A stretch of 64,000 nucleotides of DNA from Apostichopus japonicus (Eukaryota; Echinodermata; Holothuroidea; Aspidochirotida; Stichopodidae): the NCBI RefSeq assembly GCF_037975245.1, contig NC_092567.1, positions 15,741,876 through 15,805,875 on the forward strand, written 5' to 3'. Shown here piece after piece: positions 5,601 through 44,248 of this stretch; positions within the stretch are counted from its first letter, which is position 1, and every line of letters starts with the position of its first letter. The notes under the pieces were generated by a model, which saw only the letters and a program-made list of their open reading frames with translations, ran no database searches and was not told where the DNA came from. The position numbers were made by a program, and so were the translations under genes.

Positions 5601-6825
5601 GGTAACAATCCTTAGCTTGCAATTGATGTGCTTGAAAGGAAGCTTAATGCGTTCAAAATGTTAAGATATTAAATTACGTGAGATTGACAGTCTTTGTGAA
5701 AAATAGTACACCATTTCGATATTTGATATATTTGACTAAAATGTAGCCAAAGGTTACCTGAATTCTTTATCACATATATATTTTTTTATTCTTGTCCATT
5801 TATTGATATCAACGAAGACTGTGTGATATGTTGTGGTAATCTATTTAATTTACCGAATTTCACACAGGTCGCCGTTGCAAAAGAAACATGAAGAAAGAAG
5901 ATGGAGATGAATATGAAGATGAAGATGTAAGTTTGCTGGATTCAATGCTTTGATTCATGTTTTAATTACAGCAATTACATTAACGTTTTTCTAATTTGCA
6001 TGTAAGCCCCAAGATTTTCATCATTGTGCAAATTAAGCTTATTTGTAACACTATGGATGATACAAAATGAGCGAAAGTTGCATATGTTACTCGTCGTTTT
6101 GCATGTATAATGTACAATACTATGATTGAAGCAAAGGCTATAGAACATAGGACAATATCTCCACAGTACAGATATCGGAAATAATTTACATTCGTGATAG
6201 GAATAAAATGTTAGAAAACTGCTTAACTACTGCAAACTGTTAAAATTTGTTCATAATCGACGGTAGTGAGTATGATGTTATGTATCTGTCCTTCACATTG
6301 AGTACGTTTGTTATTAATCTCACCTTTTCTGCTTTTCTTAAGGAAATCGATCCGTTGATCGACCGGTTCTTGAAGACACAGTTACAAATTGAAACTCCTA
6401 AAGGAGAACGGAAAGAGATGTCCGCTGCATCTTTGTTTGATTTTGATGTCGAGTGGAACAACACGAAGCGTATTCTCTTTGTAGGGGATTTTTTAACTGA
6501 AGATTCGCCGATTGTAAAACAGGCATTTACGAAGTGCTCTCATAAGAACTTTGATGAACCACTTTTTATAGTTGATATAAAGAAACTAAATTTCGAAGCA
6601 GAATTTGCTAAAGAAATTCATAAACAATTACCTCCAAACAGCAAGTATTCTCTAAAAAAAGTGAATGAAATGTTATCGTTTGAAAAGTGTTGGTTGATAT
6701 TAGATGGTGGTGGTGAACCGTTGGAGCTAACGAAGCCTCCTGTTTCGGAAGAAGATACCTATCTAGATAAACTTACAATATTTGATACGTTATGTAAAAA
6801 TGAGAGTGATTTGCTAAGAGTTTAG
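2688..6825 (+). CDS. A1: Ig-Ig-TM receptor with pseudo-NACHT tail, truncated
   Basis: Six exons are predicted: 2688-2754 (signal peptide, starting MTSYYILAVAF), 2993-3301 (Ig1), 3642-3953 (Ig2), 4665-4781 (transmembrane), 5868-5926 (acidic linker) and 6343-6825 (NACHT-like). All junctions are GT/AG. Introns 1-4 are phase 1 and intron 5 is phase 0, and the joined frame is open for 448 codons. Ig2 has the usual pair of cysteines and a tryptophan. The membrane segment runs [16 protein letters not shown]. Two things are odd. The CAG acceptor used by the other copies before exon 6 is altered, so the AAG two codons later is the likely site. A TGG-to-TAG change at 6823 removes about 35 C-terminal residues that remain readable to about 6932. 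The gene may still be expressed in shortened form or be in early decay. The role is probably a cell-surface receptor, by inference. Confidence 0.72.
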
Positions 6826-7315
6826 GTAACTTCTATACCTTCAGTTCCTAGTAATAATTTCAGTGATTATACGAAAGTATACTTGCCGAAATCTAATGAA
6901 AATGAATCACAGAGCTCAATAACAAATCTTTGAATGCAATGAAAATATGGAAAACGAAACACTCTCCTTTTATAATGGGAACGTACACAGGATATAGTAG
7001 CTAACGTTACAGATCATATTCTCATTACGTTTGAATTATATTTGACAAAGACAATTAACCGACAGATTTTTGCAATGAGCAACCAAGGTCGGAATATGTG
7101 TTTGTCTCCTAGAATTTTTCTATTTGTAAATCATGGAAGTTATATGTTTTTACGTCTTCAAAATATAGCAATCGGGAACATAATGTAAAAATTATCGATT
7201 CTTTATATTAGTAGAAATGATATAAAAACTTAGTTTGATTTAGTTTATAAAAGTATAAAGATTCCGGCCTTACTATCAAATATTTTTTCATTTCATATTA
7301 CTTGGATTATAATCG

Positions 7316-12424: not shown

Positions 12425-12488
12425 ATGGAAGACTTCAGGTTCGCCACTGTGTACAACATACTGGGTTTATTTTGTCTATATGTTGGAG
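12425..12488 (+). pseudogene. B1: orphan signal-peptide exon of Ig family B/C
   Basis: The 64-base exon starts MEDFRFATVYNILGLF and is clearly related to the first exons of C1 and C2 (MAAFRYSTVYNILGLL). The donor has changed from GGT to GGA, so normal splicing is lost. A remnant of an Ig1 acceptor follows near 12580, but the Ig exon is gone. Another Ig fragment at 13090-13190 (KCHVRLVGDGSSSKHT) has stops. This is the decayed plus-strand counterpart of the minus-strand C gene. Confidence 0.55.
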
Positions 12489-12601
12489 GATGTGGAGATT
12501 TAACTACCTATTTACATGCTGCATATCTTCATCTAACAGACCACGGTGTTTCAATCATATGTGATATTTTGTTCTTACAGTTTCCCTACAAGAATGATTT
12601 C

Positions 12602-15600
12602 TTACCTACGAAATAAAATGAAGGATTCGTGATCCTTACTCCTGATTTGAGGAGACCACAGTGGGACAAACCTCATGGTTAATATTGCAATCAATATGGT
12701 TAATATTGCAATCAATAAAACTGTTCCACTGCTGATGAGTATTAATGACAGCGTCTTATCTAATGGAAATTTAATAAACGATAATTGTGTCTGTTCATCT
12801 GTAATTATGGTTGAACTTGTCAAACCCGTAATTTGGAATCAACAACAAAAACAACAAATGGCGTCTTTCCTGAATTTATTATAGCATTATATTGACCTAA
12901 AATTACTGAAAATTCTAATGCCTTTTCCAATGGAGGAAGAGGGAAGTTCACGTACTACTCAGACACTGACCAGCTTCCATAGTTTGGTCCGTCAAGTGCG
13001 TACGTACGTTTGTAGAAGTTCGAAAAGTTACAGTAGTAGTTCCTACAACACCTCAGTATACCATGTCATGTCATTTAGCCCTAAACATATCTTTGATGGC
13101 GTTTAAGTGTCATGTTAGGTTGGTAGGTGATGGAAGTAGCTCGAAACACACTGCAGTCGGGCTCACTTTCAATAAAACGAGCGATGTGGCTGTTTTGTAA
13201 TGTTAGAATCTTAATTTAACGAACAAAATGTAAAAGTCGTACATAAAAAGCAAGTAAGTGTTGCCATTACTTAAAACTATTAATAGTAACTAACCAAGTA
13301 ACTCTATGGTCGAAAGAAAGTGCTTGCCAGGTAAAATTGGCAGTTTTACCATGATTGACGGTTATGAAAGAATGTGCTCTAATAAAATTTGTCTGTCATT
13401 TCAAGGACCAATGTGTTTCATATCGATTGAAAAATGAAATTGCCACAATCGATTTTGATGAGTATCACAAATCTTACGTTATTTGAAAGTCAACGACAAG
13501 AGTTACGTAAATTAAGTTATATGGCGGTTTAAGGTAAGAGGAGATCCGAATATTTTTTTCGCTAAAATCGAACTCACCTTCGTTCCGGACAGGCCCCCAT
13601 AAATGTCACGGATTCTTTTCAAGAGAGCAGTCGACAACGGTGTAAAGACGGACAGAGAGAGCATATGAGTTTCAAAGGTTCGATATAATTACTAACAACA
13701 ACAATAAAATTAATAGCGGTTACATAGAACAATTAAAAGTCATCATTTTCTATATATATATCCTTTTAAACGTTTTAACTTCTATACTTCATATGGCATC
13801 CTTTCCTTCTTATGGTCCTAGTGTTGTTTCGTTGAGGGTTCTGTCAACGTGTATGGTTAATACAAATGAATGTTCTTTCTTTCTATATGAGCGTCGGCCT
13901 TTTCCTTTTCTTAGTTTCACGTTCTGTTTCTTTTCCTCGTTCAAGCTTTAATTTAGCCTCTTCCCTGCCTCTTTTGCCATCTATAAAAGTACCAAAAACA
14001 CCGAATTTAATTCGTAAAGTAATGAGTCCATGTTATCTCAATGAAGGTGGAAATTGGTTTCTTTTGAACTAAAATTCTGAGCTAACATGTTATAATTAAA
14101 CAAGAGCAACTTACGGTTTTGCTTTCGGTTCAAGACCGAGATTGAAAAGAGAGAGCACGTGGCTTTACTGTTCTATTTATACCCGATGCCGACGGAATTC
14201 CGATACTCGTTAACAAAGAAATTATTACGTAATGCTTAAGGATGCACAAAACCATGGCTAAATAATTAGCATCCAATTAAATAAACACGTAAAGCAATCA
14301 ATAAAATACTTGAGGGGGTTATCCCCGAACGGGTTGTGACATTTCACTCCCCTCCTCTTGAAGAAAATGTTTCATTTTCTTAATACTTTTAAACATTTAC
14401 AACACAACTCTTTTCTTAACATTCTTAAACATTTGTAACTTTTTTTGTCTTTATATTCTTAGAATTTGTAACTCAATTATTTCCTTATAGTAAACAATAC
14501 TATTACGATACACTGTTCAACTGTTCATACAATGACTCAATTACGAGATCAAACGACTTAAACAATCTGCACCAACATTTGATGAACCCTTAATTGCTTC
14601 AATTCTCAATTTATAGGGTTGAATACTTAGAGACCATCTCATAATACGTGGATTTGCTAATCTAGCCTTTTGAAGAAATGCTAGAGTCTGTTTGTACGGT
14701 AAATTCTCTACCGTAAAGGTATCGTTGGAATTTGTTAATCCCCCAAACTAAAGCAAGGCATTCCTTCTCCATGACAGAATAAGCCTTCTCTCTTTGTAAC
14801 AGTTTCCTACTTGCGTAAGCCACAGGAAATAACTCGTTATCATGCTCTTGTAAGAGTATGGCTCCTAATCCTAAATCTGATGCATCTGTTCTTAGAATAA
14901 ATTGTTTTGAAAGATCAGGCAGGTGCAAAATCGGAGAGCTGGAGAGCTTATTTCTCAAAGACGTAAAAGCTAATTCTTGACTGTCTCCCCAAACTAGTTT
15001 GTTAGGTTCCCTATTTTTAGTTTTGTCAGTGAGAGGGGATGCTATCGCAGCATAATTAGGTATAAAACCCCTATAATATCCAGTTAGACCCAAGAATGAT
15101 CGGAGTTGTTTCTTGGTCTGTGGTCTTGGTGCAGCCTTAATCTTTTCAACTTTATCCAATTGGGGTTCTAATTTTCCTTTTCCTACAACATGACCTAAAA
15201 ATTCTACCCTTTGCTTTGCAATGCAGCATTTGCTAGGCTTTGCTGTCAAATTTGCTTCTCTGAGTCTCTTAAATACTGTACTAAGTACGTTTAAGTGTTG
15301 TTCCCAAGTTGGAGTATGGACAAGAATATCATCCAAATAGCAGTCTACATGACGTAATCCTTTGAGCAAAATGTCAATAAATCGATAAAATACTTGAGGG
15401 GGTTATCCCCGAACGGGTTGTGACAAGGCGGTCTGGTTATTATCAACATTGTGATAAAACTGTTGTTATCCTAGAGGATTTTGTTGTATATTAGATGATT
15501 GTATACCAGATGATTGTAAACAAGATGAAGGTTGTCCTGAAAAAAGCAAAATGTATAAAATTCGTACACATGATTAACAAGTATTCCCTTTCTCTATACA

Positions 15601-17393
15601 ATTTTATTTCTGTTCTAAAGTATTGAAAAAGTTTCTGAAAATGTAACGTCTTATCCGGAAAAAAAGTAGTGTGATAATTAACCTAGTATATTAAAACACG
15701 TGCTTTTAAGAAACAAACGATTTGCCGTTCCATGGAACGAGATAAATATCAAAATACATATATATCGTTTTAGAATTAGATTTAGTCGCAATAATTTTTT
15801 TCCTCAATTTTTTTTGTTAATGTCATCGGAAATAAACGTTCACAAAGTACATCTTTTATTATCATTCTCTTAACCTTGGGCCTTACAATTGCAAAGTTCA
15901 TTATAGCATACTAGAGATCACGTACGAGTTAAATTGACCAACGACCAACTAAACCATACGCCAAAGACCGTCTTCGCGTTTGCTCTATCGGCAGGGCATA
16001 TGGTTTCAAAATTGCACCCTGTAATTATATTGGAATATCTATCTTCTTAAAAAATAGATTACTTCTTCTCGTAAATTGTGGTTCAATCCACTTAATTTCA
16101 AAGAAAAGGTCGATACCTTGATATCCTACATCGACGTGTTTTATAAATGTAGACTATTTTAATCAAAACTTTGGACTTTCTTTTAAAATCTTGTTTGTAT
16201 CGAAAGGTCGACTTTTTATTCCACAATTTGGCGTATCAACTTTCGAATTTAATCTCGAATATGAAAACGTCAACTATATCCCCGAAGTAATAATTGTATT
16301 AGATATTGAGACATATTCCTAGAAATTACGACTTATAATCTCAAGGAAATTAGTCTTAAAGTGGTACTGCGTAAAGTGATTAGTATAGGTAGGTAAAGGT
16401 AAAATTGCTCCACATTAATGCATTGTTACAATGTGCGGTGTTTTATGTAAAATTTTACTTAGTATGTCAAACGTTTGACTTTTTACTAAGATTTTGAGCA
16501 AAGAGTCCCGCACTTTTGACCGATGTGAGGTATACGAAATACTCTGTAACTCTCTTTACCAATGCAAAGATCCAACTGAATGATCCAGCACCGGCGTGCA
16601 GAGTGAATCTCTAGTTACCAAAGCTTGGGATAGCTACACTTTACTTCTTTGGTTTTTTTATTTATTTTATTCTTTTTTTTTTTTTCTACATGTGTTTTAG
16701 TACTCATTTAACAATAACTGCGAAGATAATTTGAACAAACTATTAAAACTATAGGATTTAATATTTTGTTTCTACATCTTAGCAATTATTGATCGAGCAC
16801 AGTTATATATTTGCTACCGGTTTCCCCCGTTGAAGAACGCCACTGAGCATGATGCATTAGCGTCACAATGCGTTATATTTGTTAACTATAGTATGAAAAA
16901 TCACACATACCTTTTACTTTAAAGAGAAATTTTCCTCTGGTGTAATGTTTGTAAGTACAGGAGAAATTCCTTTCACTCGGTTGATTTCCATGCATTTCAA
17001 CATGTAAACTCCAAAACGTATAGCTGCAATTTCCCATTGAAATCCCGCCTATTGGCAGTTTTGGTACCGAGGTCCTGAAAATAGTCTTCGTATTTTCTCT
17101 CCAAGTAATGTTTGCAGTCGTCTTCTTTACTGGGCAAACAAGACATACTAGTGTGTTTAGCTGTACTGGACAGTCAATCTCATCTGTAAACTCTGCTGTC
17201 GATGGACATGTTATAATTGAATCTTGCAGAAAGGCTGAAAGTGCAAAATATAACATCTGGTTGGAATAAATAAACACTATAATTTTTTGCTCAGGATATG
17301 TAATTTGCAATGAATTGTTAAATACATACCTCTTTCAAATAGGAAAAGTAAGCCCAAGATGTTGTACACAGTGGAGTACCTGAAGGCTGCCAT
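12602..17393 (-). CDS. C1: second Ig-superfamily membrane receptor (partial model)
   Basis: Minus-strand exons: 17393-17330 (signal peptide, MAAFRYSTVYNILGLLF), 17234-16911 (Ig-like domain of 108 codons) and 12798-12602 (transmembrane plus short tail, ending in a stop). All known introns are phase 1. The Ig domain has CLVCPV, then ANITW, then a late FSCTY cysteine. The last exon has the membrane segment LSLILISSGTVLLIAILTIL and a short basic tail of about 20 residues with no recognisable signalling motif. The link between the Ig exon and the distant TM exon rests on strand, phase and domain logic only. A Ty3/gypsy remnant sits in the intervening intron and another Ig exon may be missing from the model. 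A 21-bp tandem duplication (12675-12716) lengthens the membrane helix. Confidence 0.45.
13604..14341 (-). repeat. Long terminal repeat of the Ty3/gypsy remnant
   Basis: 738 bp bounded by TGTCAC and GTGACA on the minus strand. The first 40 bases recur at 15386-15425. A TATA-like GGGTATAAATAG (in minus orientation, about 14175-14190) is consistent with an LTR promoter. Confidence 0.7.
14662..15369 (-). pseudogene. Ty3/gypsy reverse transcriptase-RNase H fragment
   Basis: The 235-codon frame begins just before the reverse transcriptase catalytic motif YLDDIL. It continues through LGHVVG, the connection region FLGLTGYYRGF, and the RNase H start RTDASDLGLGAILLQ with EKECLALVWGI. The fingers and part of the palm of the polymerase are missing upstream. 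The frame ends early at about 14662 because of a small deletion in RNase H, though recognisable RNase H codons continue in another frame to about 14540. It cannot encode a working polymerase. Confidence 0.9.
15426..16910. other. Intron-like stretch of C1
   Basis: No exon was recognised. The stretch is homologous to 46340-47900 in unit 3 with frequent small indels. It includes T-rich runs near 16660-16690. Confidence 0.35.
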
Positions 17394-21910: not shown

Positions 21911-24900
21911 ATGACGTCAAGTTATCTTTTGGGAGTTGCATTTTTCATAGCAACTGCTTTACCGACTATCTATTCAGGTAAGTATTGAAGTGTTTGCTTT
22001 ATTTTATTTCTTAACTGTTTCTTCTAATCACAGTTTAACCGAAACTATATGACACAATAGTAAAGCATAGCATGAAGGATGCTACCATAATACAGTAACA
22101 GATCATCTTACTCACTTTAAAGTAGAAATCTTCATATGAGACTTTGGTTTTAAAATATAATGATAATGCTTATTAAGAATGATATTTAAATTTCTATAAA
22201 TCTGTCTTTTTTACAAAGGGTCGTCACTTAGATGTCCAGAAGAACTGTCAGTTGAAGAAGGGAGCATCCAAGTTGTCAACTGTTCTCTCACAACGTCTAC
22301 ACTTACAGAGCTATACTGGTACATAGGAACCAGTACACGCTCATTACCCATCGCGCAATTGGTGTCTGGTGTCAAATACGTTTGGTCAATGCAACACTAC
22401 GATGTCAGCGACGATGGCTCACTTATCATCAAAAGCGTTGGTCGTAATCAGACAGGTCCTTACACCATCTTACACTTTATTGAAGATGACGAGACGGAAC
22501 AATACACCGTGTTTATAAATCTTATAGGTAATGATCATGTTATACAAGTAAATATGTAAGACAGATCAATTGATAATATAAGATCTAGAAAACTGTTAGA
22601 ATCAAATAGAACATATTACCTACCTGTTAAAAATCATTTATCGAATACGTTTTCTCATTATCAGTTGTTTAAGTTATCCAATTATATATGTTTCACCTAC
22701 AGTGGCGATTCTTTTACTGACACGAGTCTATGTAAGTGTTCTACCGGTTCTTGTAAATACTCTACTTTCTGAAATTCAACGAGCTGGTAGGGTAATAAAC
22801 CTTGTATGCCGTTACAATATGCTTGTTTAATCTTTCATTTTCACTTTTATTTTATTCCTTTAAAAGATCATTGTCCAGTGATAGACCAGTGTACCTCATG
22901 TGAAGATTGTGTAATACAATCCACTGAAGAGCTAATATTTCTCACGTGCACTGTCACCAGTCCAACCACAGAGAAATTATCACCAATCTGGACTTACAAT
23001 AATGGAAGTATAATTCAAGGTCGAATACACGAAGAACGACTGTCGGATAATTCGTGGAACGTCAGTGTCAGTTTGGACATTCAAAGCTTAAACTGTGGAT
23101 TAACAGTTTTGCTTTGCTCCAGTTTTACAGAAGGACATGAAAATGAACGAATGAGTGCTAGAGTAAATGTAACGTTTGGTGAGTGGTTTTTGTTGTCTTG
23201 TTGACATTTAGGTTATTATGTATATCATTACTCAGACCCATTTATGTTATGTTACGTTATCTTATGTTATGTTATGTCATGTCATGTTATGCATTCATAC
23301 TTTCAGTCAAGTTAAAAACAGCCATTGTAAAACGTTGTCAAAGAGACATTCCAAACCGAATTTATTTTATTACCAACACATATACGCGTTTATTCAATTT
23401 CGACGCATATAATTGGGATACTTTATCAAACGATATTCCCGGGTCTTACCTATAATAAATGCTGCCGTACATAATGTGAAGCTTTTTTGAAATTTAACTT
23501 TCAGATTGAACATAATTTGTGCATGAAAAATTAGCTCAAAGCACCGTATTGCGTTCGTAACGTACCGTACATTTATGAGCACAGAGTTTATTCGGTTGTA
23601 TAAAGCATGAATGTATCATAAAGCATTCTGAACTAAGTTGTGTTAAGATTTCAGGTGTTTTCATGTTTTGGATGTGTAAGCGGTGCAATAAAAGTGTCGC
23701 ATATTTTCTTTGTCCAAGTTATGGGACAGCAAAAATTTAATAATTAAAATAATGCCTTTATTGTTACAAATTTTCATTCAGTTTTGTTTATTTATTTGGT
23801 TTTCTGTCATTGTCATTTACATTATATTTACTTATGAACTTATGCCCGTATATCTTCATTTAATAATAAAAGGGTCATGTGATGACTTGGATATACCTAA
23901 TGATGGAAATGCACCGATTCTCATTGTGGGGTGCGTCATTGCAATCGTGATAATTGTTACTACGACTTTTCTTATTGCACTGTATTGCGGTAAGTGACAT
24001 CCTACTCAACAGTTTTACCATTCTATCGAAAAAGGGAAAGAAAAATCACGATGCTCATATTGCACGGGAAATAGATAAGCAAAGAAATATTAAGTGCAAC
24101 AGGAGATGTATCTAGTACATAAAGGCCCATGTTGCTGTTTACATTTATTCACATGTTGTATAATATCTTCCCGATCCCCTCTGGTAGGTCTACATGCAAA
24201 TTTGGGTGATAATTATAGCAGTTCACTTTCTTACATTTGGCACATATTATGTCACACAAAGGTTAGGGCATTTAGTACTAATACGTTAAAGATAAATGTT
24301 TTACAGAACAGTGAGAAGGTAATTACAAAAGCGAAGGCATAAAGTCATGAAATCCATGAAAGTGTAATTCCTGCAAGAAATATTTTTGGTAACGCTGCCG
24401 TTGGTTCAAGTTCATTTGCACAGTTTTCAAGTATACATACATTTCGTGGATAACGATTGATAAATCCAAGTATAAGAGACCTATTGTAACGTTTACATTG
24501 CAGTAGAAATCCACAGATTTAAGAATTGCGCATATCCCCAGATTTTGCCCGATTGGTCTTTGAATCTTAAAGAATGTTGTTATGTGCTAACTTGCAATTA
24601 ATGTAGTTAACACTGCATCAAAGTATATGATAGCTTTAATATATTGTTCTTATACATCTTTTGAATTACGCAAAATTAACGAAATTGATTTGTGTAACTT
24701 TGCGTCAGTTTGTTATATTGTGTGTACGTTATAATTAATAGTGATCAATGTCAAACGTCCAAAGAGACGCTTAAAGAATGACGGACATGAGTGACACACG
24801 AGTAACGACAAAAAGCCGAACCAAGAAATATGACTTTATGACGAGATACAAACAAAATAAAAATGGCTGTGCTTGAAAGGAAGCTCAATGCGTTCAAGAT

Positions 24901-25076
24901 GTTAAGAAACTAAAGTACGCTTATAAAAAATTAACAGGTTTTTGATAAAAAGAACACCATTTCACTAATATGTGGCCTGAGGTTACCTGAATTCCTTGAC
25001 CCCCAACACACCCACACACACACATATATATATATATATACATATATATTGTATATGTATACATATATATATATAG

Positions 25077-25108
<32 letters not shown>

Positions 25109-25176
25109 TTATATAGATATACATACATATATACATATATATATATATACACATATATATATATATTTATATATAT

Positions 25177-25219
<43 letters not shown>

Positions 25220-25230
25220 TATATATATAT

Positions 25231-25272
<42 letters not shown>

Positions 25273-26839
25273 TTTGCCCGTCTTTTGATATCAACAAAAA
25301 TTGTGTAATATATTGTGGTTTCCGATCTATTTTACCCGTATTTTAAGCAGGTCGCTGTTGCAAAAGAAACACAAAGAACGAAGATGGAAATGAAGATGGA
25401 AATAAAAGTGGAAATGAAGATAAAGATGTAAGTTTGCTGAAAGCAATAATTTTTATTCATGTTTTAATTTTATTTTCCCTCCGTTTATTAAGATTTGATG
25501 TAATATTTACAGTGATTCTTAGGTAACAGATACAATGATTTTCATATTTACAATGATAGTACACCTGCACCTTGCAGTGTTCTGGCAGAAAAACAAACCC
25601 AACTAATAACCGGAGCCGAAGACAAGCATATAATTTGGGTATATGGATAACAAATCGCTTACTTATGAATGGAATAGACCTTGGCATGGGGCAAAAGCTT
25701 GAAGCAAGTCAGAGAATTTAACACGGTATTTCCTAGATATAGAAAATCTCAAATTATTAAAACGTTCGATATTAATTGCAAACTTGAACTTAAGGAAAAA
25801 CTCGTTTATATCTGGTACGCGACTATTTAGTCTGCGATCATGTTTTAATTACAGCTCCGCCAAAAATTTACGTTTCTAGAATTTCATGTAAGCTCCAAGA
25901 TTTTCATCAGTTTGCAAGTTAAGCTTATCTTTTACAGTATGGATGATTCAAAATGAGCGATAGTAGCAGTTGTTAATCGTCGTTTGCATGTATCAATGTA
26001 CAATACTATGATTGAAGCAAATGCTAGAACATAAGCAAATAACTTCACAAGACAGATATCGCAAAATAATTTACATTCGTGTTGGGAAAAACATGTTAGA
26101 AAACTGCTTAACTATTGCAAACTGTTACGATTTGTTTCATAATCGACAGCAGTGACTACAATATTATGTTATGTCGACCTTTCCTTCACATTGAGTACGT
26201 TTGTTATTTATCTCACCATTTCTGCAGCTTAAGGAAATCGATCCCTTGATCGACGGATCCTTGAAGACTCAAAAGAGAGACTCAGACTCAGAAGAGTCAA
26301 AAATTGGAACTCCTGACGGAGAACCGAAAGAGATGTTCGTTTCATCTGTTTTCGATACTGATGAGTGGAAGAACACGAACCGTATTATTTTTTTGGGTGA
26401 TTTTTTAGCTGGAGAAACGTCGATTGTTAAACAGGCAAATTTGATGTGCTCTCATTGGAACATCGGCGAAACCATTTTTGTTGTTGATATAAATAAACTT
26501 GATTTCGAAGCAGATGTTACTATAGAAATTCATAAACAATTACCTCCAAACAGCAAGTATTCTCCAGATAACATCAATGAAATGTTATGCATTGGAAAGT
26601 GTTTGGTGATATTTGATGGTGATGGTCAACCTTTGGAGCTACCGAAGCTTCCTGATTCGGGACAAGACATAATTCTAGATAAAATTACAACATTTGATAT
26701 TTTATTTACAGATCAGAATCCTTCTCTAAGAGTTTGGATTACTTCTATACCTTCAGTTCCTACTAATCATTTTATTGATTATAAGAAAATATACTTGCCG
26801 AAGGTTAATGAAAATGATTCCCAAAGCTCAACACTTTAG
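21911..26839 (+). CDS. A2: intact Ig-Ig-TM receptor with pseudo-NACHT cytoplasmic domain
   Basis: Exons: 21911-21977, 22219-22527, 22867-23178, 23873-23989, 25351-25427 and 26228-26839. They join into one open frame of 497 codons with GT/AG sites. Residues 1-22 are a signal peptide ([17 protein letters not shown]). Ig1 is at 23-125, and its second canonical cysteine is replaced in GPYTILHF. Ig2 is at 126-229 with cysteines in FLTCTV and VLLCSS. The membrane segment is in 230-268, followed by a Cys-Cys-Lys-Arg stop-transfer, and residues 269-294 are an Asn/Asp/Glu-rich linker. Residues 295-497 resemble NACHT from its start to sensor 1: GDFLAGET at 351-358 in the Walker A place, VIFDGDGQ in the Walker B place, and RVWITSIP. 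The Walker lysine is Glu and the Walker B Glu is Gln. N-glycosylation sites include NCS, NQT and NVS. The protein is probably a type I surface receptor. An 8-residue Ser/Asp/Glu insert (about 311-318) is unique to A2. Confidence 0.8.
23236..23295 (+). repeat. Pentamer repeat TTATG/TCATG in intron 3 of A2
   Basis: Imperfect repeats of GTTATGTCAT type lie shortly after the Ig2 exon. Counterparts lie at 4022-4075 (A1), 35545-35580 (A3) and 58672-58738 (A4), with different lengths in each copy. Confidence 0.6.
25012..25271. repeat. Long TA/CATA microsatellite
   Basis: About 260 bases of TATATA broken by CATA and CACACA lie in intron 4 of A2. The matching intron of A3 has a short TA run (39806-39838) and A4 a shorter one (60597-60616). 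Open frames here are low-complexity Tyr/Ile strings and are not genes. Confidence 0.95.
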
Positions 26840-31559: not shown

Positions 31560-31974
31560 ATAGCAGACTTCAGGTTCTCTACTGTGTACAACATATTGGA
31601 TTATTTTGTCTATATGTTAGTGGTATGGATTCAACTGACTATTAACATTTGCATATCCTCATCTAATAGACCACGGTGTTTCAGTCATATATGATATTTT
31701 GTTTTCTTACAGCTTCCCTACAAGAGTCGATATAAGATGTCCCGTGACGATCGAGTTTACAGGAGCCTAAATTGAATGCATCGTGCAGGGAAACAAAGAA
31801 GTTTGTCTGGTTTGTCCAGTCAACAGGAAGATTGCCAACATAACGTGGACAGGAAATACTGCCACTACTTTTAGGACCTCGGTACAAACACGGCCAATGG
31901 ATGGAATTTCTGAAGGAGGTTGCCATGACTCTTTGGTCTCTAATGGTAGAAATACATGCTTATCAATCTAATGA
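31560..31974 (+). pseudogene. B2: decayed Ig receptor fragment (signal exon and half of Ig1)
   Basis: The first exon (31560-31623) has lost its start codon (ATG to ATA). The Ig1 exon begins after a TTACAG acceptor at 31713 and carries TAA at 31733 and further stops. It still shows CLVCPV, ANITW and DGISEGGC motifs shared with C1 and C2. The similarity stops at about 31975, where the next repeat unit begins. The break marks the unit 2 / unit 3 junction. Confidence 0.7.
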
Positions 31975-31975
31975 A

Positions 31976-34215
31976 AGAATGTTCGTAGTTCTCCCTCCCT
32001 CCCCCGAAACAAATCATGTCAACATGACATACTTGTATACAGTAGTTAGGATGATGTAGTATATATTCTCACAACCAAGTATACTTAAGGGGAGGAAGTT
32101 GAGCCTGCCCAACCCCACCCCTTTTCACACTGGCAAACAGAATGTAATAACGACATTTAGTGAACAGTTTATGAATCTACAAAATGTACATGGATCTCAA
32201 CCTTTACAGTAGAACATTCTTCAACATCGTTTACAATGTTGCAAAATATAGCAACATTTTCCTGCATTGTCAATACCAAATCCCTGGACGTCTTAACATA
32301 TTATCCCTCGCCCAGTACAAGAACGGTGGTTGCGTCTCTGCTCACATTGTATTGCTTCATTTCTTCTTATGCTTTAATGATTGTTCAGTACAGTTCTTAA
32401 AGTTTTTTCCCGGTACCTATCAAATGGGATTTCAAACGAAATCATGAGAGTACCATATCCAAGCGTCTAAAGGTGTCAAATAGAAAATTAAAAAAATGTT
32501 CCAATCTTAAACCATGATGATCTTGAGTGCAGCGCTCCAGGGTGTTGTGCTAGAAATGACAGCTTTCATAGGGTATGGTTGAATGTGATGAATATTCAAA
32601 ATTCAACACATTGATCAATTTGGAAAAGTCAACATAATGGTAAAGTATTCCGGTAAGGAGAGTGGTGTTTAGCAGGTTCATCAAACCAACTTCCGATGAC
32701 GATAACGAAGTATAAAAAAGTAATATTCTACCTTTACATACAAATTTATCCATGATAAGTGTTTATTATTCGCATATTTAAGTGATACAGTATTTGGTTA
32801 ATTTGTTAGTCATTTAGTGATAACGGTTTATCAGGGTCTGACAAATGCAACAAATTAAGCTTCAGCAATACATTTCCCAAGTGGGTCTACTGGGTTTTGT
32901 GCACCGATAGCTCATGTAGTATAGCGAGCAGTGTTAAAGTGAAACAAATAGTTTAATACTGTAGGCTACTGTTGTAAGTTCTTTCCCATATAGCTGCACA
33001 TTCGGTGCATTGGCAGACGTCAACGTATTTGTAATTTGTGAATTGTACAGACCGTCATTCCTGAGTAAAATATGATAACCCAAGGTGTTTTAAACATTAG
33101 TATATATCACAGTTTACCCATTGACCTTCGTACTGGGATTGTTTGTGTTAGATTATATGCATGAATATCACGTCTACAGCTAACTGTACAGTACTTCTCT
33201 TTGTGTTAACTGAAACAAATGGAGTACAGTGAGCTCAACGTTATACTTTGTAAGTAACATCCATTCGGTATTTTGATACTTTTGAACATTATTTACTGCT
33301 TCGGGGAGTAATTGATCTAACGAATTTTAACTATAATGACTAATACTCTTACTTTTAAAGTTATTAAGCGTATCATTTAACTCTAAGTACCTCATTTTAT
33401 TGGTAAAATAATGAAGAGTGTAATGAACTATGGAGGCACATAGTGTACACAATTAATACTGTCCACGGTTGATCAGCAGGCCTCGTTTGTACTCAAGTAC
33501 ACACTGAATTTGTGGTTTCATAGACCAATGTAACCTGCAGAACGAAAGCAGTAAATTATGTTTAAAGGGATATTCTGGCGGTAGACTATGTAAAATTTGT
33601 ATCTTTGAGAAGTATATTCCACACTTAATATTTTAGTTGAAACCCTCATTTCAGGTATTGGCACAAACTATGGATTATTTGATGTTTCCTATCATTTAAA
33701 CAGCTTCTTCTTGCTCTTCAAAATATTGTTTAGAGAAATAAAGACGTTTTAAAGTATGCTGCTCTGCATGTGACAACATTCAATTTGCTGCTGCTGCAAT
33801 TTGCAATTTGCTGCTGAATTCACAAAATAAGACTAAACTTCTAAAATCTAACATATCTAACATATAACATGCTACCCTGGAGACCTCCTTCAAAATATTT
33901 TTAAGTCATGAGCTCTAGCCATAGGAACACCCTCAAATAGGTCTAATATTATCGTCTTGAAGATGCTTGAATGTATTTCAACTGGTGACATTAGTTTAAC
34001 CTCGATGTCAATATATCTGGAGATTTATTCAAGGCAATGGTTTCTTTACCATGGTGATATAAAACAGCATCGAATATCTTGTACGATTTTAAATTTCAAT
34101 TTTATTTTATATAAGGAAGTCTTGAAACAGATTAAGTAAGAAGGAAGCATTTTTCACCTCTGACAGGTGAAACCCTATATTCGACATTGCGAAATATGAA
34201 GCCCGATAGTTCATC
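31976..34215. other. Unit 3 start and 5' flank of A3
   Basis: The stretch is homologous to 170-2687, except that the (TTTA)n retroposon of unit 1 is absent. It carries the same TATA-like and donor-like motifs near 33101 and 33250. No gene is seen. Confidence 0.4.
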
Positions 34216-36074
34216 ATGACGTCATCTTATCTTTTTTCAGTTGCATTTTCCATTGCAACTGCTTTATAGACTATTTATTCAGGTATGTATTTAATTGTTT
34301 TGCTTTATTTCTAAATAGTTCCTTCTAATCACAGTTTAACCGTACCAATATGACACATTAGTGTAGCGTAGAATAATGGATGTTACCATAAAACAGTGAA
34401 AGGTCATCTTGCTCACAGAGTAGAAAACTTTATATGATACTTTGGTTTTAAAATATAATGATGATGTTTATTATGAATGATATCAACATTTTTTTAATGG
34501 TATTTTTACAAAGCGTCGTCACTTAGATGTCCAGAAGAACTGTCAGTTGAAGAAGGGAACATACAAGTTGTCAACTGTTCACTCACCACGTCTACACTTA
34601 CAGACCTATACTGGTACGTAGGAGCGAGTACGAGCTCATTCCCCATCGCGCAATTGGTATCTGGTGTCAAATACGTTTGGTCAGTGCAACATTACGATGT
34701 CAGCGACGATGGTTCACTTATCATCAAGAGCGTTGGTCGTAATCAGACAGGACCTTACACCATCTTACACTTCATGGAAGATTACGAGTCGGAACGAGAC
34801 ACTGTGTTTATAAATCTTATAGGTAATGATCATGTTACACAAGTAAATATGTAAGGCAGATCAAGTGATAAGATAATATCTAGAAAACTTTTCGAATCAA
34901 ATAGAGCATATTACCTACCAGCTTACAATCATTTATCGAACAATCATTAACAAAATCTGTTTTCTCATTACCTCTTCTTTTAAATTATTCGATTATATAT
35001 TTTACTACTACAGTGGCGATTCTTTTACTGACATGAGTCTATGTAATTGTTCCTCTGGCTCTGTAAATACTCTACTCTCTGAAATTCAGCGAGCAGGTAG
35101 GATAATGTTTGTCACAAGATGCTTGTTTAATCTTTCTTTATCAATTTTGTTTTTTCCTTTCAAAGATCCTTGACCAGCGATAGACCAGTGTACATCATGT
35201 GAAGATTGTGTAATACAAGCCACCGAAGATCTAATACTTCTCACATGCACTATCACCAGTCCAACCACAGAGAAATTATCACCAATCTGGACTTACAATA
35301 ATGGAAGTATAATTCAAGGTCGAATACACGAAGAACAACTGTTGGATAATTCGTGGAACGTCAGTGTCAGTTTGGACATTCAAAGCTTGAACTGTGGATT
35401 GACAGTTTTGCTCTGCTCCAGTTCTATAGGAGGACATGAAAATGCACTAAGTGATGCTAGAGTAAATGTAACGTTTGGTGAGTGGATTTTGTTGTCTTGT
35501 TAGCGTTTAGGTTATAATGTATACCATTACTCTGACCCATTTATGTTTCGTTATGTTATGCTATGTCATGTTATGTTATGGTCAAACTTGGTATTCATAC
35601 TTTCAGTCAAGTCAAAAACAGGGAGTGTCAAACTTTGTCAAAGAGTCATTTCAAACCGAATTAATTTTATTACAAAACATATACGCGTTTATTCAATTTC
35701 GACACAAATATCTGGGATACTTTATCAAACGATATTCTCGGGTCTTACCTATAGTAAATGCTGCCGTACATAATGATGAACCTTTTATGATATTTTACAT
35801 TTAGATTGAACACAATTTTTGCATGAAAAATTAGCTCAAAACACCGTATTGCGTTCGTAACATACATACATGCATGAGCACAGAGTTTAATTGGATGTTC
35901 ATTCATACTTAGTAAAGATTCCTAAATCCTATTGGTCCATTCAAGTCAGCTGACCGTGGTTAATCCTGTGAGTAACGCACGGTAAAATTACCGGCTGATG
36001 AATACAATTGTTACCATGTTACCATGTTTTGTCGTCTGCTTTGATGAGCTATCGAAATACATCAAAAACACAAA

Positions 36075-37622
36075 ATGGCTTATATAACGTTTGATTTGAA
36101 CTTCGATTTGCGCACTTTAGACGAGGTAGACACTCAGGAAAACAATGGAAGATTTGCAAACCTGGTTGAGAAAGACTTAGATCGAATTGGAGAAGACAGG
36201 AATGAGGAGTCCACGAAGAAAGTCACGAAATGGGGAGTTAAACTCTTGAAAGGTAAGCTGCTAGAACTTTAGAAGTAGTAGTAGGCGTTCTATTGCCTAG
36301 AAACAGGCCTAGGAACGTAATGTTAGGCCCCCGGCCCTAGACTAGACCTAGGTGTAGTTCCCCAGCCCCCTCCCCATCTTTATGGCTGGTACCAAAGTTC
36401 TGTATACCAAATATTAGCACTTCTCGTAAAGCATGATTTATAAATCATCAGTAAGCTTTAAATATGTCAAAACACTTACTTTCTATTACAGAATGGTGTC
36501 AAGCAAAGGAGCTAACAACTGATTTTGAGCAGCTTAACGTGCCGGAATTGGCTTACCTTCTTCGAAGATTTTATGGAGAAGTTCGAATACAAGATGGTAG
36601 TTCATATGCAAACAAAACATACAGAGGACTGAGGGCTGCGATCCACCGCCATCTGACAGGGGCTCCCTGCAACCGTCATGTAAACATTATGAGAGATAAA
36701 GACTTTCAGAGTGCCAATAACGTCTACATTGGAATGATGAAAAAATCAAGAGAGAAGGCCTAGACGTGAGTTGTCAGAAACCAGCTATTTCTGAAGGCGA
36801 CTTCAAAACCATGTTTGAGAGCAAAGTTTTGTCCACAGATAATCCTTCTCCACTGTTAAACATGGCGTGGTTTTATCTTGAGTACCATTTTTGTCGTCGA
36901 GGACGAGAAGGTCTGCGAAGTCTAAAGAAGTCGTCGTTTAACTTTGGTATCGACGACACAAATAACGCATATGTCTTTCTTAACTTCAACGAAGCACCTA
37001 AAAATCACCCTGGCGACCTCCAAGACGACTTCCAATCCCGGAAACGTATGTATGCCACAGATGACGAAAAATGTCCAGTGAAGGCGATCAAGAAGTATTT
37101 GCAAAAGCTGAATCCAAACTGCGAACACTTTTTTCAACGGCCAAAGGTATATGTTGCTGAATCAGACCAAGTAGGGTATAACAACCAGCCGCTGGGGGTT
37201 AACACCCTTGGGAAAATGATGGTGAAGATTTCCGAAAAAGCAAAGCTGAGTCAGAAATACACAAACCACTGTGTTCGTGCAACAACTATTACAACACTCA
37301 GTAATGCTGGCATCGAGACACTGGTCATTATGGCCATGAGTGGACACAGAAACGAGAGCAGTATAAAAGTTACTGCCAAGATGCATCTAATTCACAGAAA
37401 CGATCCTGTTCAAAAGTCTTGCAAGATGCCATCAGAGGTAAAGGACGCGAAAACATGGATCCGCACTCAAGTCTAGGCCAAAGTGTAGGCTGCACAGCTG
37501 TTGCCTCCAACAATGACATTAACGTTACTGCTGCTGTTAGGGCTGAAACGTCTAACATGTCCAAACTGTTTTCCAAATGTTCTTTCCAAAGTCCTGTGAA
37601 TGTTTACTTCCAAAATTCATAG
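36075..37622 (+). pseudogene. Crypton-like tyrosine recombinase, frameshifted
   Basis: The first exon, 36075-36251, starts MAYITFDLNFDL and ends at a GTAAGC donor. The second, from about 36491, has the core: LAYLLRRFYGEVR, SYANKTYRGLRAAIHRHL, FCRRGREGLRSLKKS, and the catalytic-box residues NHCVRAT and MSGHRNESSIK. This is the recombinase type also found in ZMYM2/QRICH1-like host proteins derived from Cryptons. The frame is broken near 36740-36763 and again at about 37363-37370, immediately before the TAC at 37371 that should supply the catalytic tyrosine. The remaining C-terminus is readable in the shifted frame to 37622. The enzyme cannot be made intact from this copy. Confidence 0.8.
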
Positions 37623-38255
37623 TTATATCCGTATTAAAACACCAAACAGTTGTGGATGCTTTGAGTTTAAATATATCCAGTATCTGTCCGTAATTAAATG
37701 TTCGCAAGGCCGTTATGTTGCTCATAGTGTTATAAAGTTAAAGTTAAACGACCGCAGTACCAAGCACTGTGTAGTGTGTACGTTCAAGTGAGTGTACGTG
37801 TTCAATACAAGGCCTACTATGTTATCGTATGGCTGTATACCATACGTACATGTTTGTCCCTAGAATGGTTGCTATGGGAACCAGAAGCTGTAGGGCATTG
37901 ATATGATGAAGCCAACTAGAAATTGTTTGTAGTTCGTTGTTATTGAGACCTTTCAAAAATAGTTTTATGGCCGCAATATTGCCAAAAATTAGTTAAAATG
38001 TTATTATGGTTCATCTTTTATGAATGACAGCCTTTCAAAGACGTTTCCTTTATAATTATTTACTATCGTTCAGTATTACTTTATAATTGCACATGTACAT
38101 TAATGTTATGCTGGTTGTTAATCGTTAATTTGACTTACGGGGCATCACTTTAATAAATCTTCGGTTATATTTAACCAAAAATGTTTTGTTTTATGATTTT
38201 TCCCCCACACAAATGGTAGTGTATGAATGAACGGGGTTAATCAACGGTCTAGCGT

Positions 38256-38385
38256 GCGTTACTCACATGATTAATGCACTCCGGGTGTTAATGCTATCGC
38301 TGGATGCACTCGGGCTCCGCTACGCTCCGCCCTCGTGCATCGCTTGCATTATCCGCCGATCGTGCATTAATCATGTGAGTAACGC
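38256..38385. repeat. Right-end palindrome of the Crypton-type element
   Basis: A 24-base arm at 38256-38279 is exactly inverted at 38362-38385. The 82-base interior has its own short inverted GAGGGCGGAGC-like segments. Confidence 0.9.
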
Positions 38386-39800
38386 CTTATTTAAAGCAAA
38401 AAAAGTGTCATAACGCATTCTGAATGAAGTTGTGTTAAGATCTCAGTTCTTAAAGATGTTTTGCAGTTTCATTAATTGGATGTGTAAACGGTGTTTATAG
38501 GTGTCGCATATTTTCTTTGTCCAACTTATGGGACAGCTAAAAAATCATAATTAAAATAATGCCTTTATTGTTTCAAATTTTCATTCAGGTTTGTCTATCT
38601 GCTTGTTTTTCTTTCACTGTCATTGACATTATATTTATTGATGAACTTATGCGCATGTTTCTTAATTTAATATTTATAGTGTCATGTGAGGACTTAGAAA
38701 TACATAATGATGGAAATGCACCGATTCTCATTATGATGTGCGTCATTGCAATAGCAATAATTGTTACTACGACTTTACTAATTGCACTGTATTGCGGTAA
38801 GTGACAATCTATTTAACAATTTTATAATTCCTTCAGGAAAAGGGAAAGAAAAATCACAATGCTCGCATTTCACGGAAAAAAGATAAGCAAAGAAATATTA
38901 AGTGCAACAAGAGATGTTTCTACATACAGGCCTATGTTGCAGTTTACATTTATTCACATGTTGTATAATATCTTCCTAATCCCCTCTGGTAGGTTTACAT
39001 GCGGAAGTTGGGTGATAATTATAACAGTTCACTTTTTTACATTTGGCTCATATTTTGTCATACCCGGGTTAGGCGAAGGCATGCGAAGGCATAAAGTCAT
39101 GAAACCCATGTAAGTATAATTCTTCACAACAAGAAACATTTCAGGTAACGCTTCCGTTGGTTCAAGTTCATAAGCACAATTTTCAAGTATACAGACATTT
39201 CGTAGATAATGATTGATAAACCCAAGTATAAGAGGCCTATTGTAACGTTTACATTACAGTAGAAATCCACAGATTTAAGAATTGTGTATAGCCCCAGGTT
39301 TTGCCGGATTGGTCTTTGAATTTTTAAGCATGTTGTTACGTGCTAACTTGAAATGTATGTAGTCAACCTTGCATCAAAAGATATGGTAGCTTTGTCATAG
39401 TGTTGTTGTACACTTTTGAAAATACCAAAAGTTAACGAAATTAGTTTGTGTACTTGCATCAGTTTGTTATCTTGTGTGTACGTTATACATTAATCGTGAT
39501 CAATGACAAACGTCCAAAAGAGACGCTTGAAGAATGACGTCAATGAGTGATACACGAGTAACGACAAAACGCCGAACCAACAAAGATCCCAAGAATAAGA
39601 CTGAAATGTGATCGAGATATTAACCAAATGGTAGCAATCCTTAGCCTGAAATTGCTGTGCTTGGAAGGAAGCTTAATGCTTTCAAGATGCTAAGAAACTA
39701 AATTACATTTATATAAGATTCCGATTTTTGTGATAAAAAGTACACCATTTTGATTTTTTATACTTTTCACTAATATGGACTAAGGTTACCGGAATTCCTT

Positions 39801-39841
<41 letters not shown>

Positions 39842-40979
39842 TTTTATTCTTTGTCCATTTATTGATATCAAAAAAGACTGTGTGATATATTGTGGTTTCC
39901 AATTTATTTTACCCGTATTTCACGCAGGTCGCCGTTGTAAAGAAAACACGAAGAATGAAGATGGAAATGAAGATGAAGATGTAAGTTTGCTGAAAGCAAT
40001 GCTTTTAATCCATGTTTTAGTTACAGCTCCACGAAAATTTACGTTTCTAGAATTGCATGTAAGCTCCAAGATTTTCAGTTAAGCTTATTTGTTACACTAT
40101 GGATGATACAATATGAGTGATAGTTGCAGTTGTTACTCGTCCTTTTGCATGTATCAATGTACAATACTATGATTGAAGCAAATGCTAGAACACAGGAAAA
40201 TAACTCCACAATACAGATATCGCAAATAATTTACATTCGTGTTAGGAAAACATGTTAGAAAAATGCTTAACTACTGCAAACTGTTAAAATTGGTTTCATA
40301 AGCGACAGTTGTGACTACAATGTTATGTTACTTTGACCTTTCGCTCACAATGGGTACGTTTGTTATTTATCTCACCTTTCTGCAGCTTAAGGAAATCGAT
40401 CCTTTGATCGACCGGTTCTTGAAGACACAGTTAAAAATTGAAACTCCTAAAGGAGACCGGAAAGAGATGTCCGCTGCATGTTTTTTCGATTCTGATGAGT
40501 GGAAGAACACGAACCGTATTCTTTTTGTTGGGGATCTTTTAGCTGGAGAAAAGGCGATTGCTAAACAGGCAAATTTGATGTGCTCTCAAGGGAGCATCGA
40601 CGAAACCCTGTTTGTTGTTGATGTAAAGAAACCTGATTTCGAAGCAGATTTTAATAAAGAAATTCATAAACAATTACCTCCAAACAGCAAGTACTCTCCA
40701 GATGAAGTATATGAAATGATATCGTTTCAAAAGTGTTTCTTGATAATTGATGGTGGCGGTGAACTGTTGGAGCTACCAAAGCCTCCTGATTCGGAAGGAG
40801 ACACCATTGCAGATGGATTTACAATATTTGATGTTTTATTTAGAAATATAAATGATCGTTTAAGAGTTTGGGTTACTTCTATACCTTCAGATTCTAGTTA
40901 TCATTTCAGTAATTAGACGAAAATATACTTGCAGAAGTTTGAAGAACATGGATCACAGCGCTCAATTACAAACATTTGA

Positions 40980-41527
40980 ATGCAATGAAAATATGGGAAA
41001 CAAAACACTCTCCTGTTATAATGGGAACGTACAAAGGATATAGTAGCTAATGTCACAGATAATATTCTCAATACGTTTGAAACAGATTTGACAAAGACTA
41101 TTAACCGCCAGAGTGTTGCAATGAGCAACCAAGGTCGGAAGCTGTGTTTGTATCCTTCAATATTTCTATTTTTAAATCATAGGGGTTAGATATTATTCGA
41201 AATTAATGTTAGATTTGAATTGATTGCCTGTTAGTGTAGTACCTATGTAATTTGCTATTGAAAACGAGTTGATACAATTAGACCAACACTATATTGAATG
41301 AGGTTCGTCACATTTACAATACATGCGTGTATACATTAAATCGTATGTCCTGAAGTGTATAACGATATTCCATATCAATTTGTGTTCCTTGTAATATAGC
41401 TTTAGACTGTTTCCATATTACAAAAGCTGACGGCCATAAAATCCGCATATTAGGAGTTCGAAGTTCTATAACAGTTGGCTCCCTTAACGTAATATAATAA
41501 TAACGACAAGATAAATCATGATGTGTC
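40980..41527. other. 3' flank of A3
   Basis: The stretch is similar to the A4 3' flank (61711-62303) and lacks the roughly 200-bp block containing AATAAA that lies behind A1 and A2. No gene is seen. Confidence 0.4.
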
Positions 41528-44248
41528 CTACATATTCTCAACATGAAGGTATATTGAATTCACATGACTTGTTTTGAATTCATCAAATTGAACTCTTCCT
41601 TTGGCATGCAGTATTTGCAATATTCTGTTAACTATATCAAACTGATCATATGGGTCTAAATAGTTCTCCTGTGGAAAAGAGAGAGAGGGAGACGTTGAGT
41701 AGGCCTACTGTGTACACGTATCACAAGTTATATATATGACGACATGATGTTATTTTCTCTTAAATTTGTGAATTAATACAGTAAATATAATTAGCCAAGG
41801 GAGGCGAAGTTTCCTATTATAGTTTGTGTTGACTTTTATGGAATCATGGTATCAATGGAAATGTCCTTCATTTTGGCAAACATCCATTATTTCCGAATCT
41901 GATCCGAATATGATATGTTTGATTGGATTTTGACGTCATTCAGAAACACTTTGGTCCCACTGAATGATATTACTAGGTTACTGGCATGTTAGCTCAAGTT
42001 ATTGGCAAGTTCTCGTAACACAGACGTCGCTCTTATCAAAACTTTAATTCATTATAACTGGAATTTTCCTGGAGGTTTACTGATGTATATACACTATAAC
42101 GGTTACGTAGCTCTTTTGTTGTTACGAATCTAAGGCTCCAAGATCTTTTCAAGAAGCTTTAGATAGGAAAGGGACCTTTTTATACCTCTCACGAGAATCA
42201 AATGATCCTGGGTTTTATTAAACTGGAAACGCTAAGACACTGACTTATACTACCGATTTGACTTGGAATATAAAGTCACCTCGTTGAAGACGATCACTAT
42301 CAGAAGACCTAATAACATAGAATCGTTTATCGATAGCGTTACGCCATTCACTAACGGGACAGGGAACGTTTGGCTTAAACCTAGATCATCAACACTTGTA
42401 TTGATGCACCTGCACCCCTAATTTAACCGAGAATATTACACAGTGTTCATCTGAATACTGAACGTATATCAAAGCACCCTCTATCAGACATCTTATCTGA
42501 ACCACCAGCCTTTACCTTTCCACGAGCGAAATATGTAAGCGACTCTCGCATCAGAGCGGGTCCCCTTTCAAACACAGTCCGGCACAGCATAGAACCCCCA
42601 TTGACGACTCAACCAATGTAAAACACACTAAACGTCCTGTGACACCTCTTATTTTGCAATCATATTGACGTTTGTACCATACGGCTACCGATGGGCACTG
42701 TAAGTACCTTCTGCCTAAACATGCATATGTGTATAGTATACCTACGATATAATAGGTAACTGATTATCATCAAGTCACAATCTAACAGTTTCCATTCGTC
42801 GTGTATTTTGCTTGTGGTACAAATTATATTTAACTGGTATACTTGATATGGCAATAGGTGTTTTCTACATGTTTAATGAGTTGCATACCTTTACTTAAAG
42901 ATACATATATTACTAAGATCTAGAGTCAGAGAAAGTTGCTTTATTCAACCATTTCCTTCTGGCAATTGAGGATAGGAGGAAGTAGGGGGCAAAGTAGTGT
43001 GGGTACGTCTCATATTATGGTCAAGGCGACAGATGGCGAGGCGACGAGTTGTAATTAAATACAATCTCAAAATCTATATATGTTAATGACGCATAGCTTT
43101 CGTTGATGTCGGTGTCTGTTGTTGTAATGCCACAAGGTTGAGTTCATAAGGTAATGCAATGTAGTACTTTTGCTGTTGCTTTGGAATAATTTTGAATACT
43201 GTATCAGTGAAATGTCATTGTTCCTATGTTCAAAAGATGGCGAAACGTGGATCCGTACCCAGTTTAAGGTCAAGCAATAGAGTACAAACTAAAAGTAAAA
43301 GAAAAAAATTCCTAGGGTAATAATTACATCACACGGCTTCACTTTTGATATAGACTCTTTAAGGTTGAAATGTAAAAATCTCGAAAACTATATTCTTTTA
43401 AGAATTGAATGACAATTTTGAAGCAGGAAGTGCAGATTCAGTCCATCTTTATTAACATTTCAAAATCAGTCATGTTACTTTCGTGGGATAAGAGTAAGGG
43501 CTTGCTTGTGATAATGAAAAAAGTAGAACAGCTCATTTATAAGTATATACTGCTTACTTCACGGACATTAATGTCAGCATTTGTTGGTGAATCACTCATC
43601 AAAATAAAACATGTTTTTAAATTGCAAATTTGAAATATTGTACGGCTAATTAAGTCGACTTTTCATAATAATAAATTTGCTCAAACAAAAGTCTACCGGG
43701 TAATTTTCAGACGAGACCCAAAAATATTACATGTATTCTGTTGGTGTACCACTGGCTGCAGGAGCTGCATGAAAGTTATTACAGATTAGTGAATAATATG
43801 ATACAATACAATTAATCATATTACTTTGACTCGGAGAGTAAGTAATAAACGGGGGGTTCTTTCTCAACAACTTCTATTGTGCAAATAACAAACGAACTAA
43901 AATTGATTTCCTTGTTTCGATTCAGACAATATTTTCCACGAGTGGTCCTTTTTTTTGGTATGGAACATTAATCTTAACATACTATTGTTTTAATGCAAAA
44001 GTACTTGACTGGCGTTAGTTTCCAAGTACCTCTCAAAGTACAAGTTTAGCAATTCTAATTATAGGCTCATTTTTACTCAACTGATTTATATCTATGAGTA
44101 CGCAATAAAGTAGTTACTTTCCAATTGAAAGTTGGATAGACTACATGAAATTTACCATATAATATGGTTGCCTATGATAATCTTTACCTGCCCATATCGG
44201 TGTATGTATTCCTAAAGCCTTGAGTCCATCTAACTGGAGTAACGCCAT
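41528..44248 (-). CDS. D3: minus-strand gene of unknown function, best copy
   Basis: Exons: 44248-44188 (starts MALLQLDGLKALGIH, phase 1 donor GTAAAG), 42409-42280 (phase 2 to 0; LSQTFPVPLVNGVTLSIND, then hydrophobic MLLGLLIVIVFNE) and 41668-41528 (47 codons including stop; DQFDIVNRILQILHAK). The exon-to-exon phase between the last two agrees. The phase 1 end of the first does not join the phase 2 start of the middle exon, so at least one exon between 42.4 and 44.2 kb is missing from the model. The protein may be a small membrane protein, since one segment is hydrophobic. I cannot assign a family. Copies occur in every unit, three of which are damaged. Confidence 0.4.

Follow-up and report, generated by a model that had tools for sequence, protein, structure and literature searches.

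The first paper on AjNLRC4, a receptor of the sea cucumber Apostichopus japonicus, reportedly appeared in Dev. Comp. Immunol. in 2020. In a 2021 report, AjNLRC4 (MN607598) is presented as a membrane receptor with an Ig-like and an Ig domain outside the cell and a NACHT domain inside, which binds Vibrio, dimerises and is internalised, and whose inner part binds beta-actin (PMC8699970). According to a 2025 paper, AjNLRC4 and caspase-1 form an inflammasome-like complex leading to MLKL cleavage, in which caspase-1 is contacted through the Ig domains and not through the NACHT domain (PMC11932488). AjNLR-new (PIK48001.1) from 2026 combines Ig, TM and NACHT in one A. japonicus protein, and the same source mentions that the species has a set of Ig-TM-NACHT genes (PMC13133943). 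NLRs with extra domains including V-set are described for the sea cucumber Chiridota heheva (PMC8913654). The membrane Ig-TM-NACHT concept, in which a surface Ig receptor may bear a NACHT domain and lead to an inflammasome-like complex, has been in the literature for A. japonicus since 2021 (2021 to 2026), contrary to an earlier sequence-only reading of this locus, which knew of no established family with such an architecture. Its suggestion that outside recognition may feed an inflammasome-like assembly is likewise in print for AjNLRC4, although through the Ig part.

Here we describe four tandem gene copies (A1 to A4) in a 64,000-nucleotide stretch of DNA, hereafter the window. A literature search, which missed most subscription papers, found no paper on this family. 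We see about an even chance that the copies encode tandem single-pass surface receptors whose alpha/beta tail, perhaps a decayed NACHT domain, makes no use of ATP and recruits partners by surface contacts.

Gene structure and receptor anatomy

The A2 gene (21911-26839) comprises six exons whose borders are GT/AG and whose phases match (exons 2-4 are symmetric, phase 1); they join in frame into a single open frame of 497 residues with no stop, as had been proposed from the sequence alone for both A2 and A4 (Table 1). The predicted product comprises, in order, a signal peptide, two Ig-like domains (D1 and D2), one membrane helix, a linker and a tail of about 200 residues. The A4 product has 468 residues, or 479 with a longer exon 2; NCBI isoform X1 uses the second donor of that exon (57941-57973, +) and thereby gains 11 residues between the Ig domains. 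Two of the four copies in the window are fully open (A2 and A4) and in the other two (A1 and A3) the tail is interrupted by a stop; A1 is also without the usual exon 6 acceptor. Of the strings quoted in the sequence-only reading, LPPNSKYS is present in all four copies, and FLIIDGGGEL and RVWVTSIP were recovered in A3 and A4 but not in A2, which has RVWITSIP together with a different ten-residue string.

When compared to 5.8 billion proteins, the family returned ten relatives at E<=0.01, each listed under the name Apostichopus japonicus; a profile search gave the same ten at E<=1, and a search with only the tail gave nine of them at E<=10. The receptor family thus appears, so far, in A. japonicus only, in searches that reach relatives with shared exact five-residue words and 0.55-1.75 times the length, so that absence outside this species is not proof. 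Membrane and tail exons are joined in the annotation of P0001-P0007, that is, of paralogues including A4, and we infer the A2 tail from these paralogues. NCBI's own model of A2 (P0009, 326 residues) aligns with A2 but lacks the tail because it runs into intron 5. Reading from exon 5 into intron 5 (25351-25530, +), this model gives a short-tailed receptor, which may be a genuine tailless form or a mistake in the gene model. The tail is open past the sensor-1 strand in eight of the ten database members (P0001-P0007 and P0010), although gene models are chosen for being open.

D1 matched Pfam V-set in all eight full-length members scanned (E 8.9e-6 to 2.4e-4), above the curated cut-off in one of them, and its second canonical cysteine is missing by eye. 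A whole-protein profile gave 34 PDB matches at E 0.0073-0.099, all to T-cell receptor alpha chains and covering part of D1. For D2, no Pfam match was found in the members scanned; the usual cysteines and tryptophan are present by eye, and the single PDB hit of a six-sequence profile at E<=10 was to an antibody CH3 domain (E 0.41). A single hydrophobic stretch exceeds 1.6 on the Kyte-Doolittle scale, with its peak at residues 245-264 and basic residues after it. By profile, D1 assigns the proteins to the immunoglobulin superfamily, and the predicted layout is that of two Ig-like domains outside, a helix and a cytoplasmic domain, with D2 the weaker element in both respects. Judged from its sequence, the A1-A4 cluster is a set of real A. 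japonicus genes for immune-type surface receptors, and the anatomy proposed earlier is correct as to signal peptide, paired Ig-like domains and membrane helix; its NACHT-like tail fared less well, as described below.

Table 1 Positions of the receptor copies and other elements in the window, with the basis of each assignment
Feature	Position	Strand	Basis or remark
A2 exon 1, signal peptide	21911-21977	+	In-frame join, GT donor; start equals P0009 start in alignment
A2 exon 2, Ig-like domain 1 (V-set-like), phase 1-1	22219-22527	+	Pfam V-set E 2.4e-4, residues 29-107, under curated cut-off
A2 exon 3, Ig-like domain 2, phase 1-1	22867-23178	+	Cysteines and tryptophan by eye; single PDB match of profile, Ig CH3, E 0.41
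A2 exon 4, predicted transmembrane helix	23873-23989	+	Kyte-Doolittle maximum 2.95, windows from residues 245 and 246
A2 exon 5, juxtamembrane linker with basic followed by acidic residues	25351-25427	+	In-frame join
A2 exon 6, cytoplasmic tail, 203 residues and stop	26228-26839	+	NACHT-like in motif order only
A1 copy, tail stop, exon 6 read from 6343	2688-6919	+	Exons reproduce P0008 letter for letter
A3 copy, pseudogene	34216-40965	+	Stops in exons 1, 3 and 6
A4 copy, open	57242-61710	+	P0004 (NCBI isoform X1) letter for letter if exon 2 ends at 57973
A4 exons	57242-57308, 57632-57940 (or -57973), 58293-58604, 59426-59542, 60704-60756, 61162-61710	+	Open frame, as in A2
Second family loci	16909-17393, 47902-48384	-	Signal-peptide / Ig-like exons
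Second family loci	31560-32025, 12425-12490, 45162-45227	+	Signal-peptide / Ig-like exons
Tyrosine-recombinase-like frames, in A3 intron 3	36455-37473	+	QRICH1, DUF3504 and phage-integrase matches
Retrotransposon fragment	14665-15402	-	Reverse transcriptase and RNase H

A second family, combining signal-peptide and Ig-like exons, lies between the A copies at five loci. In these exons two copies are open and one has stops; a further two have the signal-peptide exon only, and one member of the open pair matches C1-set weakly (E 0.036). The recombinase-like frames in intron 3 of A3 are perhaps a Crypton-type element, which may explain the length of this intron.

Divergence of tail and ectodomain

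Across 36 pairs of nine members (P0009 and P0010 were left out of identity and rate tests), mean identity was 65% in the tail (residues 338-470; 67% for residues 295-490), compared to 84% in D1, 82% in D2, 85% in the membrane exon and 74% in the linker. Among the four window copies (six pairs each, stop-bearing codons removed first), dN/dS was 0.80-1.49 for the tail and 0.36-0.68 for the ectodomain, with bootstrap ranges that include 1 in six of six and two of six pairs, respectively; in D2 alone, dN exceeded dS in A1-A2.

It is possible, if somewhat unlikely, that the tail is losing its function under relaxed constraint and that the receptors rely on their ectodomain and membrane part, for example as tailless or decoy forms. 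The nucleotide comparisons are consistent with this, as exon 6 identity is 80-83% in every pair except A3-A4 (five pairs, about 480-490 aligned bases), within the 72-94% of introns and flanks and under the 90-95% of exons 2 and 3 in the same pairs; in rate of divergence the tail is close to introns and flanks, and the ectodomain is more conserved. Exon 6 has diverged further than intron 5 in A2-A4 (82.4 vs 88.9%, p 0.008) and A2-A3 (p 0.009), and the tail stops of A1 and A3 as well as the ending of the NCBI A2 model in intron 5 point the same way. The difference between exon 6 and intron 5 is, however, not clear in A1-A2 (p 0.25) and A1-A4 (p 0.053) and is reversed in A3-A4 (97.5% in exon 6, 95.1% in intron 5); A1-A3 was left out of this significance test. 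Loss of function also fits poorly with rate variation among tail sites, which is supported in nine sequences (lnL from -2025.0 to -2013.4, a gain of 11.6), and with the eight of ten database members that keep the tail open, gene models chosen for being open notwithstanding. In neutral simulation, branches stayed stop-free in 8-20% of runs, and because of this and of that choice of models the stop-free tails are only modest evidence of constraint. Invariant columns number 41 of 207 across ten tails, a further hint at some constraint.

The pattern in the tail fits selection for change or relaxed constraint alike. A stable ectodomain combined with a pseudo-NACHT tail diversifying under selection, in conflict with intracellular pathogen factors or with shifting partners, seems unlikely to us.

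The 3' flanks of A3 and A4 are 97.3% alike, close to the value for their exon 6, yet exons 2 to 4 are 87-95% identical, a patchy similarity as after recent conversion or unequal crossing-over. Large tandem duplicated blocks are found at 38452-43157 and 59152-64000.

Relation of the tail to known domains

Pfam NACHT (PF05729) was matched by none of 12 sequences from ten genes (A1 left out, the A3 tail ended before its stop), in a scan asked to E 10 in which HMMER filters discard most matches above 0.1; six vertebrate NACHT domains, used as positive controls, scored 120-189 bits. An HD1 or winged-helix domain, or a sensor or effector domain, likewise had no Pfam match in the sequences scanned.

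Walker A, the DGxDE Walker B and sensor-1 are motifs which we take to carry the nucleotide-binding role. At the lysine site of the Walker-A GxxxxGK[ST], none of ten tails has a lysine, with glutamate in seven and aspartate in three, and P0004 has a lysine one position past this site. In Walker B, the first aspartate and a glycine as fourth residue are found in all ten tails and the last acid is kept as glutamate in five, and the sensor-1 arginine is missing in nine of nine. If the motif register is correct, the nucleotide-binding residues would be absent from the tails. The NACHT-like order noted earlier holds for spacing, which at 72-73 and 42 residues is near the 76-82 and 45-47 (29 in NLRC4) of five vertebrate domains, but not for the residues presumed essential for nucleotide binding. 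The proteins end 19-35 residues past the sensor-1 position (nine of nine tails), which leaves no room for HD1 or winged helix.

The comparison with NACHT proposed in the sequence-only reading did not establish the match: hhalign scores against the plain NACHT set were reached by 30/40 and 41/100 shuffles, and those against extended sets, at best marginal, by 6/100 and 11/100. The alignment with a FISNA-NACHT set was collinear over 136 columns with the motif positions in register. Global hhalign runs gave meaningless three-column alignments, reached by 38/100 and 33/100 shuffles. In a local hmmsearch with a six-sequence NACHT profile, the ten tails averaged 0.12 bits, a value reached by 8.6% of the 1520 nulls reported (2010 made), and the best two tails (5.3 and 2.8 bits) aligned out of register. 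Searches of the PDB by sequence gave three matches for the A2 tail (E 0.57-0.62) and four for a ten-tail profile (E 0.27-0.31), none of them NACHT. An AlphaFold model of the tail (mean pLDDT 51.9, pTM 0.42) shows, with low confidence, alternating strands and helices, and its VIA-align list contained no NACHT or NLR chain, at a model quality too low to tell; a full-length model (mean pLDDT 30.5) was discarded. Scans with PHROGs, NCBIfam and PADLOC gave nothing useful. On these comparisons, the tail is not established as a NACHT domain.

IL-1 receptors combine Ig domains with a single helix and an alpha/beta tail. That architecture and the alternating strands and helices of the low-confidence model would suit an alpha/beta signalling domain with no relation to NACHT, either TIR-like or new, which we nonetheless find unlikely. 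Pfam TIR was not matched and the hhalign scores against four TIR domains were reached by 96/100 (local) and 33/100 (global) shuffles, results that speak against TIR and leave a wholly new domain conceivable. Highly improbable is a working NACHT module by which recognition outside leads to nucleotide-dependent, inflammasome-like assembly inside, since the order and spacing of the three motif positions, the collinear FISNA-NACHT alignment and the A. japonicus Ig-TM-NACHT receptors already described, one of them in a caspase-1 complex (PMC8699970, PMC11932488), are set against the Pfam result, the scores attained by shuffles, the missing key residues, a C-terminus that HD1 and winged helix do not fit, and the finding that the caspase binds the Ig part of AjNLRC4 and not its NACHT part (PMC11932488).

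Proposed mode of action and comparison with known receptors

In our preferred reading, that of surface receptors with a tail that may be a decayed NACHT, two Ig-like domains would face outwards on a single membrane pass, and the tail of about 190 residues would probably be an alpha/beta domain that has ceased to bind or hydrolyse ATP. Binding of a ligand or neighbour by the conserved ectodomain would cluster the receptors, and the tails would recruit partners (cytoskeleton or caspase-like, by analogy with AjNLRC4) via surface contacts and not by ATP-driven assembly. The copies may then differ mainly in the intracellular partner that is engaged or evaded. With a dead NACHT as tail, the receptors would have no need of a nucleotide switch; a tail other than NACHT would mean that a surface receptor carries a domain of unrecognised fold. 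The reversed divergence pattern and the acid at the Walker-A lysine site in every tail seen are worth attention.

The IL-1 receptor family resembles the A2 family in architecture, but the A2-family tail has no detected TIR similarity. The Chiridota heheva proteins combine NACHT and V-set in another holothurian and were detected by a Pfam NACHT search, with no membrane helix mentioned in the portion available (PMC8913654). AjNLR-new shares species, Ig and TM with the A2 family; it differs in its 1197 residues, in two helices about the Ig part and in a topology reported as NACHT outside and Ig inside (PMC13133943), in contrast to the Ig-like domains placed outside here. AjNLRC4 is, like the A2 family, a surface receptor of the same species with two Ig-type domains outside, a helix and then a cytoplasmic domain, but by its published description it is longer, with a recognised NACHT at 600-757 and two predicted helices (483-503 and 776-795). 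By description, the A2 family is set apart from it by a tail of about 200 residues with no recognised NACHT and no Walker-A lysine, and one published AjNLRC4 primer is absent from the 64,000-nucleotide window. The A1-A4 cluster is a tandem branch of a layout similar to that of the published receptors, with a fast-diverging, unrecognised tail.
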